Shown in pieces: positions 6,413 through 21,035 of a DNA stretch of 27,609 nt. Source of the stretch: a virus; the IMG/VR virus record IMGVR_UViG_3300042558_001448, positions 1 through 27,609 of that record; one strand, written 5' to 3'. The notes below the pieces were generated by a model. The model worked only from the letters and a program-made list of their open reading frames with translations. It ran no database searches and was not told where the DNA came from. The stretch's first letter is position 1; each line of letters begins with the position of its first letter. The position numbers were made by a program, and so were the translations under genes.

Positions 6413-8890
6413 ATGATAACATGGATCACACCCGCAGGCAGTCTAGGCTTACTCACAGAACGAATATCCATCGATATACAACTACAGGCCACTACCAATC
6501 TCACAGCCGCTGTCACATATAGCCTAATCGCAGGTGTTTTGCCTCGAGGACTCAAACTGATAAATGGTGCGATCAAAGGTAGTCCCACTGAAGTCAAAGT
6601 CTACACAGAAAGCAGATTTGTGATACGTGCCTCCGATGGGGTAGACCTAGAAGACCGAACTTTCAAACTTGCAGTGGATGGCAGCGACAGACCCATATGG
6701 CTCACACAGGAAGGATTCCTCAATGTTGGAGAAGCTGAAGCTTACTTTGTCTTAGACAATGCACCAGTTGATTTTCAACTGGAAGCCCGTGACTCGGATC
6801 TCATAGCTGGCGGAACTCTAGAATACTATCTCATGCCTAATGGCGGATTGTTACCGCCGGGTCTTAATCTCAGCAAAAGTGGTGTGATATCGGGTTTCAC
6901 TGATCCAATATTTGCTGTGGAATACACCTTAGAAACTTCTGGAGGCTACGATACCGCTCCCTTGGATGTGTTTCCCATAGACTTTGTAGAAGCTCGCAGC
7001 AATGGCTACGACACATTTGTGTTTGACAGTTTCACCTTTGACTACAACGAACCCAGCAGGACTCCAAGAAGACTCAGTAGGATCTATAATTTCATAGTGG
7101 CTGTCACTGACGGTGTGTATACTGAAACTAGACTGTTTAAAATCTATGTGGTCACTGAAGAGTTTCTGCAAGCTGATAACTCGTTGATTCAAGTAGATAC
7201 CAATATATTCCAAGCTGATGCCACCAGCGATCGTGTGCCAGTATGGATCACTGGCAGCGATCTAGGACGCTTTCGAGCCAACAACTATGTGACCATATTC
7301 TTAGATGTCTACGATCCGCCTACGTTAAGCGGTACTATCACATACTTCTTATTGCCTACAAATCCTGATGCTACTGCCAGTCAACTGCCTCCGGGCATGG
7401 CCTTAGACACTTCCACAGGCGATATAGCAGGTTCTGTGCCTTATCAAGCTAGAATTTCTAGAGATTATAAATTCACAATTCGTGCAGTGAACTATCCAGC
7501 AGCCCTAGCCTATACATCATATGTATACAAAGGCTCGTGGAATAACTCCACCACTTATGTAATCAATGACGCAGCGGAATTTGTCGGAATCACTTATGTC
7601 TGTGTACAGGCTCATCTCAATAGACTGCCCACCGATGCAGATTACTGGAGAGCTGGCACATCAAAGACCGAAAAGACTTTCACCGTGACTGTGATCGGTG
7701 AAATCGAAAGTGCTGTTGAATGGATCACTGACAGTGACCTCGGCACTATCAAACCCAATACTGCCAGTGACAAATTTATAGAAGCTACTAGCCTACTCTA
7801 CGGTGGCAGGATTGCCTATGAATTTGTGTCAGGCACACTGCCTCCAGGGTTGACATTTTTGCCCACCGGCATCTTGCAGGGCAAGGTCAAACAGTTTGGT
7901 GATGACACTGGTCTAGGGTTAACCAGATTTTTTGAACGTGCAGACAGTCTTGCTCCTGTAGAAGACAGTTCCACACTGAGCAAAGATTTTTCTGCTGTGT
8001 TTGACACAGCTACTACTTCTTTTGATCTCAAGTTTACTTTTACCATCAAGGCCAGAGACAGTGTGAATTTTGCCACGGTGGATAGAACCTTCAATCTCAC
8101 TGTACGTGTAGAAAACAATCAAACTTTTGCTAACCTATATGTCAGAGCTTTCCAAACAAAACCCAAAAGATTGGCCTGGTATAATTTCATCACCGATGCA
8201 GTGATATTCCGGCCTGCCGATCTCTATCGATACGGTGATGTTAACTTCGGAGTACAAACTGATCTCCGCGTGTTGATATATGCGGGAATAGAAAGCGTGG
8301 CTGCTGTGAAATATGTACAGGCCATGAGCAGAAATCATTATCAAAAGAGATTGAAATTTGGCAGTCTTAAAACTGCCAAGGCCAAGGATCCCGTAACACA
8401 GGAAACTATATATGAAATTATCTATGTGGAAATTGTAGATGACCTAGAAAAGAACGGTCGCAGCATCAGTCAAACTGTGAATCTACCCAATAATATCAAC
8501 AGCAAAGTGTTGATTAGTTATGATGCGATTAAAATAGACAGCGACATTCCGCTGGTCAGCGACAGCGATCATCAACGAGTATTTCCTAATAGTATTAAAA
8601 ACATGCGATCTCGCATAGGCTCGGTAGGAGACAAAGATAGAGAATTTTTACCTCTGTGGATGCGCAGCACACAAGAACAAGCAGCGTACGAAACTGGATT
8701 TGTGCAGGCCCTACCTCTATGCTATTGCAAACCTGGATCAGCCGAGAATGTAGCAGCTAGGATCAAAGCCAGTGGGTTTGATTTTAAAACCATTGACTTT
8801 GTAGCAGATCGCTATATAATAGATATTATAGACGGAGAAATAGAGGATAAATACCTTGCATTCCCGCAACGTGGAGAAAAATTACCTTGA
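6413..8890 (+). CDS. Ig-like (He_PIG-type) multi-module virion protein (825 aa)
   Basis: Four modules each begin with a W-[IL]-T motif, at W4, W96, W278 and W437 (the last two as WITxSDLG). Each contains an L-P-P/R-G-[LM]-x(n)-G-x-[IL]-x-G element (for example LPPGLTFLPTGILQGKV), the mark of He_PIG/cadherin-like Ig folds. In the third module, about residues 369-415, lies a segment with W376, Y-x-I-N-D, TYVCVQAH and DYW that resembles a CBM5/12 (ChiC-type) carbohydrate-binding module. Residues about 600-825 form a different, non-repeated domain ending with FLPLWMRSTQ, ALPLCYCKPG and SGFDFK, a C-terminal region I recall from structural proteins of T4-like cyanophages. No enzyme motif is visible. 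It is probably a long adhesin or baseplate-linked fibre. Confidence 0.75.
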   Translation: MITWITPAGSLGLLTERISIDIQLQATTNLTAAVTYSLIAGVLPRGLKLINGAIKGSPTEVKVYTESRFVIRASDGVDLEDRTFKLAVDGSDRPIWLTQEGFLNVGEAEAYFVLDNAPVDFQLEARDSDLIAGGTLEYYLMPNGGLLPPGLNLSKSGVISGFTDPIFAVEYTLETSGGYDTAPLDVFPIDFVEARSNGYDTFVFDSFTFDYNEPSRTPRRLSRIYNFIVAVTDGVYTETRLFKIYVVTEEFLQADNSLIQVDTNIFQADATSDRVPVWITGSDLGRFRANNYVTIFLDVYDPPTLSGTITYFLLPTNPDATASQLPPGMALDTSTGDIAGSVPYQARISRDYKFTIRAVNYPAALAYTSYVYKGSWNNSTTYVINDAAEFVGITYVCVQAHLNRLPTDADYWRAGTSKTEKTFTVTVIGEIESAVEWITDSDLGTIKPNTASDKFIEATSLLYGGRIAYEFVSGTLPPGLTFLPTGILQGKVKQFGDDTGLGLTRFFERADSLAPVEDSSTLSKDFSAVFDTATTSFDLKFTFTIKARDSVNFATVDRTFNLTVRVENNQTFANLYVRAFQTKPKRLAWYNFITDAVIFRPADLYRYGDVNFGVQTDLRVLIYAGIESVAAVKYVQAMSRNHYQKRLKFGSLKTAKAKDPVTQETIYEIIYVEIVDDLEKNGRSISQTVNLPNNINSKVLISYDAIKIDSDIPLVSDSDHQRVFPNSIKNMRSRIGSVGDKDREFLPLWMRSTQEQAAYETGFVQALPLCYCKPGSAENVAARIKASGFDFKTIDFVADRYIIDIIDGEIEDKYLAFPQRGEKLP

Positions 8891-14163: not shown

Positions 14164-14190
14164 ATAAGGTTAGCCCTCCTGTAAGTGTTA

Positions 14191-14221
14191 GGCACGGACC
14201 TCAAACCGTAGTGTCCGTGTC
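14191..14221. promoter_or_regulatory. Hairpin in the phoH 5' leader
   Basis: Arms 14191-14199 (GGCACGGAC) and 14213-14221 (GTCCGTGTC) can form a 9-bp stem with one G-U pair and a 13-nt loop. It lies between the divergent phoH gene and the 14304 operon, 27 bp upstream of the phoH start. There is no T tract, so it is not a simple terminator. It could be an RNA leader structure or a protein-binding site. Confidence 0.4.
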
Positions 14222-14224
14222 CGA

Positions 14225-14234
14225 ACACATGTGT
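14225..14234. promoter_or_regulatory. Perfect 10-bp palindrome in divergent intergenic region
   Basis: ACACATGTGT is a perfect dyad next to the phoH leader hairpin and 70 bp before the plus-strand operon. It is a possible operator for a dimeric regulator. Only the symmetry is observed; no binder is known. Confidence 0.25.
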
Positions 14235-14281
14235 ATTTAACCCCTGGCTCTAAAAGATATGTGTTATGTTTGTATTTTGAC

Positions 14282-17487: not shown

Positions 17488-17769
17488 ATGAAATTATTAG
17501 CCACAGCAATTTTTGCAGGTATGTTAACATTTGGTACAGCAGCCTGCGCAAAAGAAGAACCAAAGAAACCAACAGCTACAACACCTGCGGCACCAGCAGC
17601 ACCTGCCAAAGCAGATACACCAAAGACTAAAAAAGTCTGTGTGGATCAACAGGGCAAAGATGGTAAGCCTGTGATGGATGCAAAGACCAAGAAACCAAAA
17701 CAAAACTGCAAAGAAGTCAAAGTGCGTGAAAAACACGAAGGCACAGCAGTTCCTGAAAAGAAAAAATAA
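17488..17769 (+). CDS. Small exported or lipoprotein, Lys/Pro-rich (93 aa)
   Basis: The N-terminus MKLLATAIFAGMLTFGTAAC is a clear export signal. The end could be read as an imperfect lipobox (T-A-A-C, Cys20) or as an A-C-A signal peptidase I site followed by KEEPKK. The rest is low complexity: an Ala/Pro/Thr stretch, then KKVCVDQQGKDGKPVMDAKT and KKPKQNCKEVKVREKHEG with two Cys that may pair. It is the last gene of the lysis operon before a strong terminator. A role in envelope disruption or superinfection exclusion is possible; no family is recognised. Confidence 0.6.
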   Translation: MKLLATAIFAGMLTFGTAACAKEEPKKPTATTPAAPAAPAKADTPKTKKVCVDQQGKDGKPVMDAKTKKPKQNCKEVKVREKHEGTAVPEKKK

Positions 17770-17793
17770 AGCTCAGTAAATTTCTAATTAAAT

Positions 17794-17823
17794 AAAAGGA
17801 CTGCTTGACACAGTCCTTTTTTT
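17794..17823 (+). terminator. Rho-independent terminator after lysis operon
   Basis: Arms 17794-17803 (AAAAGGACTG) and 17811-17820 (CAGTCCTTTT) form a perfect 10-bp stem with a 7-nt loop, and the T run extends to 17823. The loop contains TTGACA, the -35 box of the next promoter. Confidence 0.9.
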
Positions 17824-17833
17824 ATCATATAAT
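17805..17833 (+). promoter_or_regulatory. Consensus sigma70-type promoter nested in terminator
   Basis: TTGACA at 17805-17810 and TATAAT at 17828-17833 are separated by 17 nt, matching the sigma70 consensus at every position. The -35 box is the terminator loop and the T tract lies in the spacer. The predicted start site falls at or next to the ATG of dnaJ (17840), so the transcript would have almost no leader. As a host-type promoter it is probably an early one. Confidence 0.85.
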
Positions 17834-17839
17834 ATAAGC

Positions 17840-18685
17840 ATGGATTACTACAATACTCTAGGACTACAAAGAAACGCTAGTGATGCCGAAATAAAAAAGG
17901 CATACCGAAGCATGGCCATGAAATATCACCCGGATCGAGGCGGTGATGAAAAGAAGTTCAAAGAAATATCACAGGCCTACGAATTTCTCAGCGACCCTCA
18001 GAAAAAACAAATCATTGACCTCGGTGGCGATCCCAATGCACAGCCGGGCGGCATGGGCGGAGGTCAAGGACCTTTTGAGTTCCATTTTAACACGGGTAAT
18101 ATGAATGACATTTTTGGTAATTTTGGGTTTGGCGGATTTGGTCGCCAACCCCAACGTAGAAATAGATCATTGAACATCAACGTGGAAATTACCTTAGAAG
18201 ATGTACTCAACGGCAAGGACTTTACTGCTGAAGTTAGTATACCCGGCAAGAATAAAATGATCAATATTCAAATCCCGCCTGGTATAGAAAATGGGCAACA
18301 GATTAGATACGAAGGCATGGGTGATGATTCAATCCCAGGTCTTAAGCCGGGAGATTTATTAGTCAATGTCATAGTGCGTGAACACCCCAGATACAAACGA
18401 GAAGGCACATCGTTGATCGTAGAACAAGTAGTAAGTGTATGGGATGCATTGCTGGGAGCCAGCATAGAAATACAAACACTAGATCGCAAAACATTATCAA
18501 TGAACTTGCCGCCCGGTACACAGCCCGATACTGTAATGAGTTGCAAAGGAGAGGGTCTACCTAATATGCGCACACGACAACGAGGTAACCTACTAATCCG
18601 TATCAAGATCACAGTGCCGAAAAATCTTAACCCAGAACAGATTAACATGATCAAACAAATCAAACAAGGAACATCTAATGATTGA
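17840..18685 (+). CDS. dnaJ: DnaJ-like co-chaperone without zinc finger (CbpA type)
   Basis: The 281-aa product begins with the J domain: DYYNTLGLQRNASDAEIKKA and the H-P-D motif in KYHPDRGGDEKKF, which stimulates DnaK ATPase. A Gly/Phe-rich linker (about residues 70-105) follows, then two beta-rich substrate-binding domains with LNINVEITLEDVLNG, IQIPPGIENGQQIRYEGMGD and a second SMNLPPGTQPDTVMSCKGEG. The Cys-rich zinc-binding domain of DnaJ is missing, so this is a type II (CbpA-like) protein. No DnaK gene is in the window, so it should work with host DnaK. The J domain starts right at residue 2, which fixes the start at 17840 although no Shine-Dalgarno is visible. It overlaps clpA by 8 bp. 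Confidence 0.9.
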   Translation: MDYYNTLGLQRNASDAEIKKAYRSMAMKYHPDRGGDEKKFKEISQAYEFLSDPQKKQIIDLGGDPNAQPGGMGGGQGPFEFHFNTGNMNDIFGNFGFGGFGRQPQRRNRSLNINVEITLEDVLNGKDFTAEVSIPGKNKMINIQIPPGIENGQQIRYEGMGDDSIPGLKPGDLLVNVIVREHPRYKREGTSLIVEQVVSVWDALLGASIEIQTLDRKTLSMNLPPGTQPDTVMSCKGEGLPNMRTRQRGNLLIRIKITVPKNLNPEQINMIKQIKQGTSND

Positions 18686-21035
18686 ACCCAGCAAGAGTCT
18701 ACAAGAAATCTTTGAAAAATCTGTAGAGATGGCCAAGACCCTGAGCCATGAGTACATAACCATTGAACACATTATCTATGGTATCATGGAGGATGAGGAT
18801 TCTTATAAACTGTTAGAAAGTTTCGGTGCTGATGCTAAATTTGTCAAAACAAACATCGAACACTATCTGAGAAACAATCTCAATGATATTAAAACTACCA
18901 ATGTCAACGCAAAACCTAAAAAGACCAACAGTGTAGAACGTGTGTTGAATCGCTGCTTCACACAGGTGTTGTTTAGCGGCAGACAGCGTATGGAAATAGC
19001 AGATATCATTATCAGTGTGCTGTCAGAGAAAAATAGTTTCGGTTACTACTTTCTTACCAAAGCCGGAGTGACCAAAGAAAAGTTTGTGAAGTATTTCCAA
19101 GAAAATGTACAGATAACCGAAGACGCAGAAGTCGAAACAAGAATAGTGAACTCAAATCAAATAGATCGGATACTGAATCAATTCTGTACCAACCTCAGCC
19201 TCAAAGCCAAGCAGCGAAAACTTGACCCTGTGATAGGTCGTGATGACGAAATAGAAAAAATACAGTTGGTGCTGGCTCGCAGAAACAAGGCCAACGTGTT
19301 GATGGTGGGTGATCCAGGAGTAGGTAAAACTGCCATTGCCGAAGGCATTGCTCGTAAGATACACGAAGGTAAGGTTCCTAAATTCATCAAAGACCATCAA
19401 GTCTATACCTTAGACATCAGTGCTCTGTTAGCTGGCTCCAAGTATCGCGGCGATTTCGAAGAACGTGTTAAAGCAGTGCTGTCAGCCTTGGAGAAGAAAG
19501 GCAATATCATCTTGTTCATCGACGAAGCACATATGATGAATGGTGCAGGTGCTGCAAATGGCAGTTCCAACGACATGGCCAATATGTTAAAACCCATACT
19601 TACCAAAGGTGTTCTCAAACTGATAGCATCTACCACATGGGAAGAATATCGCAAGCACTTTGAAGCCGATCGTGCGCTGATGCGCAGATTCCAACGTGTG
19701 ACCGTTGAAGAGCCTAGTGCAGAAATGACCGTGAAGATCCTGAAAGGTCTAAAGAAATATTACGAACAGCATCACAATGTGAAAATATCCGACGCAGCCA
19801 TTGAGCAAGCAGTCAAGCTCAGCGTCAAGTACATGGCAGATAAAAAACTACCAGATAAGGCTATCGATATCATTGACTGTGCCTGTGCTAGATACAAACT
19901 CAAAGATGACGAGAGCATGGAAGGTGTTACACAGATTGTAGACATAGAACAAGTTACCTACGAACTCAGCAAGATGATTAACATGCCGTTGGAAACAGTG
20001 GCGCAAAAAGAAAGCAAAAATCTTGCAGATCTAGACACTCAGATGAAAGGAGTGGTCTACGGCCAAGATGGCGCTGTAGATACATTGTTAGATAAGATAT
20101 TTGTAAGTCAAGCTGGCATGAAAGCACCTAACAAGCCTATTGGTAGTTTCCTATTCTTAGGCCCTACCGGCTGCGGTAAAACCGAAACTGCTAAACAGTT
20201 AGCAGATAAAATGGGCATGCAACTAATTCGATTTGACATGGGCGAATATCAGGAGAAACATTCCGTGGCAAGATTGATTGGTGCTCCTCCGGGCTATGTC
20301 GGTTACGAAGACAATGCTGGACAACTTATTACCAAGTTACAAGAAACACCCAACGCTATCTTACTGTTAGACGAAGTTGAAAAAGCTCATCCAGATGTTA
20401 TGAATATTCTTCTAGCATTCATGGACAACGGTTTTATTACAGGATCCAATGGCAAACAAGCTGATGGTCGCAACACCATATTGATTATGACATCAAATCT
20501 TGGAGCAGCAGACAACGAACTTAACACCATTGGGTTTGGAGAGTTGGAACGAGACGGTGAAGATGACAAAGCCATCAAGAAACATTTTAGTCCGGAATTC
20601 CGCAATAGATTAGATGCTGTGATCAAGTTCTCTAAACTCAGTGGCGATACGGTCATCCAGATCGTCAAGAAGTTTGTGGCTGATCTCAACAGTCAATTAA
20701 AAGACAAAGGCATTGAGATTGTGGTCAACGCCAAGGCCACTCGTTGGCTAGCAGATCGAGGCTACGACAAGAAGATGGGAGCAAGACCATTGGCCAGAAT
20801 CATAGACAACGAGATCAAGAGCCCGCTAAGTCGTAGAGTATTGTTCGGCGATCTAGTAAATGGCGGTAGAGTCACTGTAGATATAGTCGACGACAAACTT
20901 GATTTTACAGTTGTTGAGATACCAAAACCGTTGACCAAGGAAGAGAAAAAAGCTCTCAGGGCGCAACGCAACGCTGAAGCAGCAACTACACAAGAACAAG
21001 ATGCTACAACTGAAAACCAAATCAACCAGTCGTAA
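18678..21035 (+). CDS. clpA: ClpA-like AAA+ unfoldase
   Basis: The 785-aa protein has an N-terminal Clp_N domain (ITIEHIIYGIMEDEDSYKLL), a first AAA+ domain with Walker A G-D-P-G-V-G-K-T at 211-218 and ILFIDEAHMM, and a second with Walker A G-P-T-G-C-G-K-T at 495-502, GAPPGYVGYE and ILLLDEVEKAHP. No long coiled-coil insert separates D1 and D2, which fits ClpA rather than ClpB. In D2, I618-G619-F620 sits where ClpA has the I-G-L loop that docks ClpP, so host ClpP binding is plausible. FSPEFRNRLD and GARPLARIID follow as in ClpA. The C-terminal tail is Glu/Ala/Thr/Gln-rich. No ClpP or ClpS is present. It starts within the dnaJ stop region and shares its promoter. Confidence 0.92.
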   Translation: MIEPSKSLQEIFEKSVEMAKTLSHEYITIEHIIYGIMEDEDSYKLLESFGADAKFVKTNIEHYLRNNLNDIKTTNVNAKPKKTNSVERVLNRCFTQVLFSGRQRMEIADIIISVLSEKNSFGYYFLTKAGVTKEKFVKYFQENVQITEDAEVETRIVNSNQIDRILNQFCTNLSLKAKQRKLDPVIGRDDEIEKIQLVLARRNKANVLMVGDPGVGKTAIAEGIARKIHEGKVPKFIKDHQVYTLDISALLAGSKYRGDFEERVKAVLSALEKKGNIILFIDEAHMMNGAGAANGSSNDMANMLKPILTKGVLKLIASTTWEEYRKHFEADRALMRRFQRVTVEEPSAEMTVKILKGLKKYYEQHHNVKISDAAIEQAVKLSVKYMADKKLPDKAIDIIDCACARYKLKDDESMEGVTQIVDIEQVTYELSKMINMPLETVAQKESKNLADLDTQMKGVVYGQDGAVDTLLDKIFVSQAGMKAPNKPIGSFLFLGPTGCGKTETAKQLADKMGMQLIRFDMGEYQEKHSVARLIGAPPGYVGYEDNAGQLITKLQETPNAILLLDEVEKAHPDVMNILLAFMDNGFITGSNGKQADGRNTILIMTSNLGAADNELNTIGFGELERDGEDDKAIKKHFSPEFRNRLDAVIKFSKLSGDTVIQIVKKFVADLNSQLKDKGIEIVVNAKATRWLADRGYDKKMGARPLARIIDNEIKSPLSRRVLFGDLVNGGRVTVDIVDDKLDFTVVEIPKPLTKEEKKALRAQRNAEAATTQEQDATTENQINQS

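Follow-up and report, generated by a model that had tools for sequence, protein, structure and literature searches.

A putative terminator hairpin with the -35 box of a sigma-70-type promoter in its loop precedes the dnaJ-like gene of an uncultured phage

Can a single short element at the junction between two gene groups of a phage act both as a terminator and as a promoter? This question is raised by the region between the lysis genes and a dnaJ-like gene in IMG/VR virus record IMGVR_UViG_3300042558_001448, of which positions 1 to 27,609 (27,609 nt; hereafter, the window) were analyzed. Upstream of the junction, the genes are arranged in the order endolysin (15558), a 206-aa protein, holin (16847) and a 93-aa ORF; the endolysin and holin were assigned using PHROGs, and the 93-aa ORF matched no family in Pfam or PHROGs. 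For the clamp loader, the best isolate matches, with a sequence identity of 50%, were Pseudomonas phage PA5oct (Arenbergviridae) and phages closely related to it, and the gene order clamp loader, PhoH, DnaJ and ClpA was found to be common to the window phage and PA5oct. A megablast search for a near-identical isolate among 50,697 phage records gave no match. The window phage appears to be an uncultured relative of the Arenbergviridae phage PA5oct. The features discussed below are listed in Table 1.

Table 1. Positions of the genes and predicted signals at the two junctions, in window coordinates.
Feature	Position	Strand	Basis	Remarks
93-aa ORF	17488..17769	+	ORF listing	Signal-peptide-like start; last of the endolysin-holin gene run
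TAAATA late-promoter-like box (T4 gp55 type)	17789..17794	+	Relatives, hexamer bias, gp55-like sigma	Predicted late start ~17800, inside the 5' arm
Element 1 hairpin	17794..17820	+	Read from sequence, hairpin scan, fold energy, covariation	
Element 1 -35 box TTGACA	17805..17810	+	TTGAC in 40/41 promoter-positive distinct relatives	In the hairpin loop
T7 run	17817..17823	+	Kept in most, not all, relatives	U-tract of the predicted intrinsic terminator
Element 1 -10 box TATAAT	17828..17833	+	Sequence, promoter scan, relatives	17 nt from the -35 box; predicted start ~17840
dnaJ-like gene	17840..18685	+	Pfam DnaJ, DnaJ_C	No Shine-Dalgarno
clpA-like gene	18678..21035	+	Pfam AAA_2, Clp_N	3' of dnaJ
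Element 2 hairpin	27339..27371	+	Sequence, hairpin scan	14-bp stem, loop TAGGT, T run after
Element 2 -35 box TTGACT	27357..27362	+	TTGAC[T/C] in relatives	
Element 2 -10 box TATAAT	27380..27385	+	Promoter scan, relatives	17 nt from its -35 box
dsbA-like gene	27406..27609	+	Pfam Phage_DsbA, E 1.6e-4, just under cut-off; PHROG transcriptional regulator, 1e-10	Runs off the window

The junction before dnaJ contains a hairpin (element 1) with a 10-bp stem, in which AAAAGGACTG (17794-17803) pairs with CAGTCCTTTT (17811-17820) and the loop is CTTGACA. The initial annotation had described this hairpin, the TTGACA in its loop and the distance of 17 nt to the TATAAT at 17828, and we confirmed each of these in the sequence. 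Element 1 displayed the anatomy of an intrinsic terminator, namely a G-C-containing stem-loop directly followed by a U-rich tract; its stem has four G-C pairs, and its RNA fold has an energy of -12 kcal/mol (z = -4.8 versus shuffles). It also displayed the anatomy of a sigma-70-type promoter (TTGACA, 16-18 nt, TATAAT), with a 12/12 match to a consensus from which the preference of the host sigma factor may differ, and a promoter scan of the whole window revealed 17805 as the sole 12/12 site. The transcript of a sigma-70-type promoter starts approximately 7 nt past the -10 box. As the dnaJ ATG is 6 nt past the -10 box, a start at the usual distance would fall on the A of this ATG. Since the ATG coincides with the predicted start site, we infer that the dnaJ mRNA is leaderless or near-leaderless.

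Element 1 is probably a nested terminator-promoter, with both activities being predicted. A host sigma-70-type RNA polymerase would use the loop TTGACA and the TATAAT to transcribe dnaJ-clpA from approximately the dnaJ ATG, and the RNA hairpin with its U-tract would stop polymerase coming from the lysis genes near 17823, thereby insulating the two units. If both activities hold, approximately 40 bp stop one transcription unit and start the next. This would be a simple, sequence-defined coupling of neighbouring transcription units, in which the nested start would be exposed to occlusion by the polymerases halting on it.

A home-made terminator scan (stem of at least 7, at least 3 GC, T tract) revealed only two T-tailed hairpins on the + strand of the window, each of which overlapped a promoter of at least 11/12. 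Promoter sites of this strength were found at 8793, 9585, 17805 and 27357, versus a mean of 0.8 and a maximum of 3 in shuffles; those at 8793 and 9585 had no T-tailed hairpin. A search of Rfam gave no family at the gathering score, and the sub-threshold matches at element 1 look like chance.

To compare related phages, 80 IMG/VR loci with ClpA were fetched, of which the dnaJ junction was readable in 65, corresponding to 49 distinct sequences. Most of the 80 relatives carry elements 1 and 2 at the two gene junctions where they are located in the window. A nested promoter of at least 10/12 was present at 41 of the 49 distinct dnaJ junctions, with a spacer of 17 nt in 40 and 18 nt in one, and the distance from the -10 box to the dnaJ ATG was 5-9 nt in these 41. 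Four stem positions showed covariation among the promoter-positive junctions (GC29/AT7/GT4, AT32/GC8, GC33/AT7 and AT25/TA13), while TTGAC was constant in 40 of the 41. Thus, the claim that one element of approximately 40 bp is built like a promoter in its DNA form and like a terminator in its RNA form was borne out, the element being conserved as both.

The -35 and -10 boxes were both present at 41 junctions and both missing at eight, with no mixed cases. The Fisher p value for this pairing (2e-9) overstates its strength because the sequences are related, and a count of independent changes is safer; on the clpA tree, the promoter state changed at least four times, and at least two of these changes were forced by well-supported branches. 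At L080, the hairpin and boxes were all missing. At the other seven junctions, the hairpin was kept without either box, a pattern that the initial annotation had regarded as evidence against its own proposal, but the boxes were always lost together, which supports the promoter. The joint loss indicates that the boxes form a unit that can be separated from the hairpin and supports a real promoter that was added to it, and the seven promoter-less junctions indicate that the hairpin has an independent role.

We also scanned viral contigs with the pattern TTGAC-N7-T5-N6-TATAAT, which does not itself require a hairpin. Among the matches listed, the -35 box was inside a T-tailed hairpin in 57 of 122 distinct viral matches, and a few of these 57 belonged to the phage group of the window. 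Nesting was found in 4 of 99 matches listed for a wrong-spacing control (one or two of these four also had a properly spaced -10-like box), in 2 of all 68 matches of a scrambled -35 control and, with the same pattern, in 5 of 116 matches listed for bacterial genomes. When the matches listed were clustered by flanking DNA, the corresponding values were 16/52 for viruses versus 2/73 for wrong spacing, 2/59 for the scrambled -35 box and 5/111 for bacteria. These controls bear on the proposal that the terminator alone is functional and that the promoter boxes arose by chance in AT-rich DNA. Terminators give T-rich spacers that favour sigma-70-like matches, and the boxes are indeed missing in some relatives, but this proposal is highly improbable given that nested hairpins were rare with wrong spacing or a scrambled -35 box, that TTGAC and TATAAT were near-invariant at 17 nt while adjoining positions varied, and that the boxes were lost as a pair. 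A chance match as the explanation was ruled out by the conservation, the covariation, the joint loss and the control scans.

The initial annotation had assigned the hairpin to the end of the lysis operon, which proved too simple. In L010, L022, L055 and L058, the 93-aa gene is absent or approximately 0.7 kb away, and the hairpin still precedes dnaJ; because it persists where the upstream genes differ, the hairpin is associated with dnaJ and not with the lysis genes. In PA5oct, dnaJ is likewise directly preceded by a hairpin, where the dnaJ strand has no promoter boxes. The T run after the hairpin was observed in most relatives, including the promoter-less ones. The U-tract was degraded in the promoter-positive L035, L057, L071 and L075, and termination there may therefore be weak.

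The view that the terminator serves late transcription and the promoter early transcription was also too simple, as it missed a T4-type TAAATA box 3-4 nt before the stem. The T4 late promoter is TATAAATA, which is read by the gp55 sigma. TAAATA was present at all 49 distinct dnaJ junctions and was 3-4 nt ahead of the stem GG in all 48 with a hairpin; its position was independent of the sigma-70 boxes, with and without which it was found. In two near-complete genomes of approximately 280 kb, G001 and G002, TAAATA ranked second and first, respectively, for strand bias among upstream intergenic hexamers, and a gene for a gp55-like late sigma is present in each of the two. The box resembles T4 late promoters in its location upstream of genes and in the presence of a gp55-like sigma in the genome (PHROG late sigma, E 1.7e-80). 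It differs in that it adjoins a hairpin holding an early-type promoter, and its late use is predicted. Because TAAATA is beside the stem at every hairpin-bearing junction, late RNA may begin at the hairpin itself. In T4-type late promoters, initiation is approximately 6 nt past the box, which by analogy would put the start inside the 5' arm. An UP element as the reason why TAAATA is conserved was ruled out, since TAAATA stays where the sigma-70 promoter is lost. The possibility that TAAATA forms the U-tract of a reverse terminator was also ruled out, since several relatives lack A-rich sequence after it and the box persists in the hairpin-less L080.

These observations raise the alternative that the hairpin is mainly the 5' leader of a late, TAAATA-started dnaJ-clpA mRNA, acting in RNA stability or translation control, with the sigma-70 promoter as a clade-specific addition to the loop and termination as a minor activity. 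The spacing of 3-4 nt between TAAATA and the stem with or without sigma-70 boxes, the fact that hairpin and TAAATA together follow dnaJ where the upstream genes differ, and the box-less hairpin of PA5oct are consistent with such a leader, as is the finding that none of the 49 distinct relatives, all of whose dnaJ junctions were checked, had a Shine-Dalgarno sequence before dnaJ. A late box directly ahead of a terminator would also seem self-defeating if it drives dnaJ, which speaks against the nested terminator-promoter. In contrast, the T run retained after the hairpin, even in promoter-less relatives, fits a terminator and not a stabiliser, and element 2 shares the hairpin design yet had TAAATA at only 1 of 50 distinct dsbA junctions. 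A general link between TAAATA and a following hairpin was also not clear, as 7 of 158 and 6 of 183 TAAATA sites had one versus 1-3% for control hexamers. We consider the leader alternative unlikely. With the nested terminator-promoter as the preferred reading, gp55-dependent initiation at TAAATA would take place on the DNA that also holds the sigma-70 promoter, so that early and late initiation should exclude each other, and late transcripts would start near 17800, with the hairpin at their 5' end.

Element 2 is located before the dsbA-like gene. Its stem has five G-C pairs, and its fold has an energy of -19.5 kcal/mol (z = -5.3 versus shuffles). The initial annotation had ascribed to it the same geometry as element 1; the T-tailed hairpin, the 17-nt distance and the TATAAT were indeed present, but the geometry was found to be similar and not identical. 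In particular, the first T of the -35 box is the last loop base, and TGACT is within the 3' arm. TTGAC[T/C]-17-TATAAT was present at 49 of 50 distinct dsbA junctions (L080 has the variant TTGATT); the lone exception, L065, was matched elsewhere, and its element 2, at 20764, is of the standard kind. In L080, the promoter is kept and the T-tailed hairpin is gone, and in several relatives the loop is larger and the inner stem is interrupted. The TAAATA box is absent from element 2 of the window, and a Shine-Dalgarno sequence (AGGAGAG in the window) precedes the dsbA-like gene in all 50 distinct relatives. Element 2 would thus play the same role before the dsbA-like gene, with an ordinary ribosome-binding site and no late box. 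We also observed an 8-bp inverted repeat, ATGACTAT/ATAGTCAT (27373-27380/27384-27391), which spans the -10 box of element 2, is poorly conserved in relatives and is a possible operator candidate.

The home-made scan detected 17 and 18 T-tailed hairpins in G001 and G002, respectively. In each genome, clear nesting with a strong promoter was found at two junctions only (dnaJ and dsbA), and the other overlaps flagged in G001 were weak 9/12 matches. The suggestion of a recurring design was thus upheld, with two elements per genome in two near-complete genomes and further examples in unrelated phages. Several long relative records contained dense clusters of TTGACA-17-TATAAT promoters without nesting. 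Among isolates, nested elements were found in PA5oct at 186478, in Stenotrophomonas phage RAS14 at 44319, 277661 and 315829, in Klebsiella phage RaK2 at 210243 and in S-PM2, and some of the viral matches were cyanophage-like contigs; T4 gave no match to the promoter pattern, and the first 50 kb of Syn9 contained no nested promoter of at least 11/12. That such elements occur in phages of Stenotrophomonas, Klebsiella and Pseudomonas as well as in cyanophages suggests that, if both activities hold, a class of phage promoters would be missed by annotation that assumes no overlap between terminators and promoters. It is conceivable, and we propose it tentatively, that the nested terminator-promoter is a widespread module of tailed phages with several origins, fused here to a T4-type late box within approximately 45 bp, where early initiation, late initiation and termination would compete. 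In the RaK2 promoter L247, the -35 box is in the 5' arm of a T-tailed hairpin with its complement in the 3' arm (TTGAC..GTCAA); L249 is a shorter version of this arrangement, and the similar-looking L248 had no stem by the scan.

Among the closest known counterparts are the PeSLs (promoter early stem-loops), which are cassettes of T4-like phages such as RB49/phi1 (Arbiol et al. 2010; Comeau et al. 2014; as described in PMC4503421 and PMC5931544). Like these, element 1 combines a sigma-70-type early promoter and a terminator stem-loop in one cassette between transcription units, a likeness read here from sequence only. The two differ in geometry. In RB49, the T-tailed hairpin ends approximately 15-20 nt before the -35 box or, in other promoters, a palindrome is inside the -35/-10 spacer, whereas the -35 box of element 1 is inside the hairpin; two 50-kb stretches of RB49 scanned for a promoter of at least 11/12 with its -35 box in a T-tailed hairpin contained none. 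PeSLs also occur as many similar copies in plastic regions, where they serve as recombination points, whereas each 280-kb genome here has only two clear elements, which differ in their stems and are located at conserved junctions between core genes. According to PMC4503421, the promoter and stem-loop cassettes of T4-like phages are linked to shuffling, which, together with the inverted repeat across the -10 box of element 2, would favour the inverted repeats being DNA operators or PeSL-like recombination cassettes and not terminators. That second inverted repeat is poorly conserved, and two elements with unlike stems at fixed core-gene junctions share little homology for recombination; we regard this alternative to a nested terminator-promoter as very doubtful.

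Inter-operon terminator-promoter overlaps have been reported in Salmonella at tufB-secE and other operons, with effects on expression and fitness (Brandis et al. 2019, as described in PMC7055797). There, too, the promoter of an operon overlaps with the terminator of the operon before it; these overlaps are on a bacterial chromosome, in translation and RNA polymerase operons, and the description in PMC7055797 mentions no -35 box in the loop. In the haloarchaeal virus HGTV-1, a conserved promoter-like motif with an inverted repeat precedes many ORFs (PMC3950731). The combination of a promoter box and an inverted repeat before viral ORFs is shared, but the HGTV-1 promoter is of the archaeal TATA type and is found at many ORFs, and no T-tailed terminator is described in the account of PMC3950731. 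Element 1 would work like the PeSLs and the terminator-promoter overlaps, and its geometry, with the -35 box inside the hairpin, is its own. The RB49 early promoters (L252-L255) often have a G/C palindrome that fills the 17-nt spacer, for example TTGACAGGGGATCGGTGATCCCCTATAAT.

TAAATA was also observed elsewhere in these genomes. In a number of genes of G002 and G001 (L083-L110), it precedes the predicted start codon by 4-5 nt, the start codons having been assigned mechanically, which suggests leaderless late mRNAs in these two genomes. On the minus strand at 41605 of G002:C1, a T-tailed hairpin (AAAGGACCAGAGGTCCTTTTTTT) comes immediately after another TTAAATA, and strong sigma-70 boxes are absent there. 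In the window, on the minus strand at 14164-14245, TAAATA is followed by a structured 5' leader, GTGTTCGG..ACGGACAC..CGGTT..GGTCCGTGCCTAACAC..AGGAGGGCTAACCTTAT, directly before phoH. This leader matched no Rfam family at the gathering score. It was strongly conserved among 37 distinct aligned relatives, with its paired positions kept, and it may be an unrecognised riboregulator.
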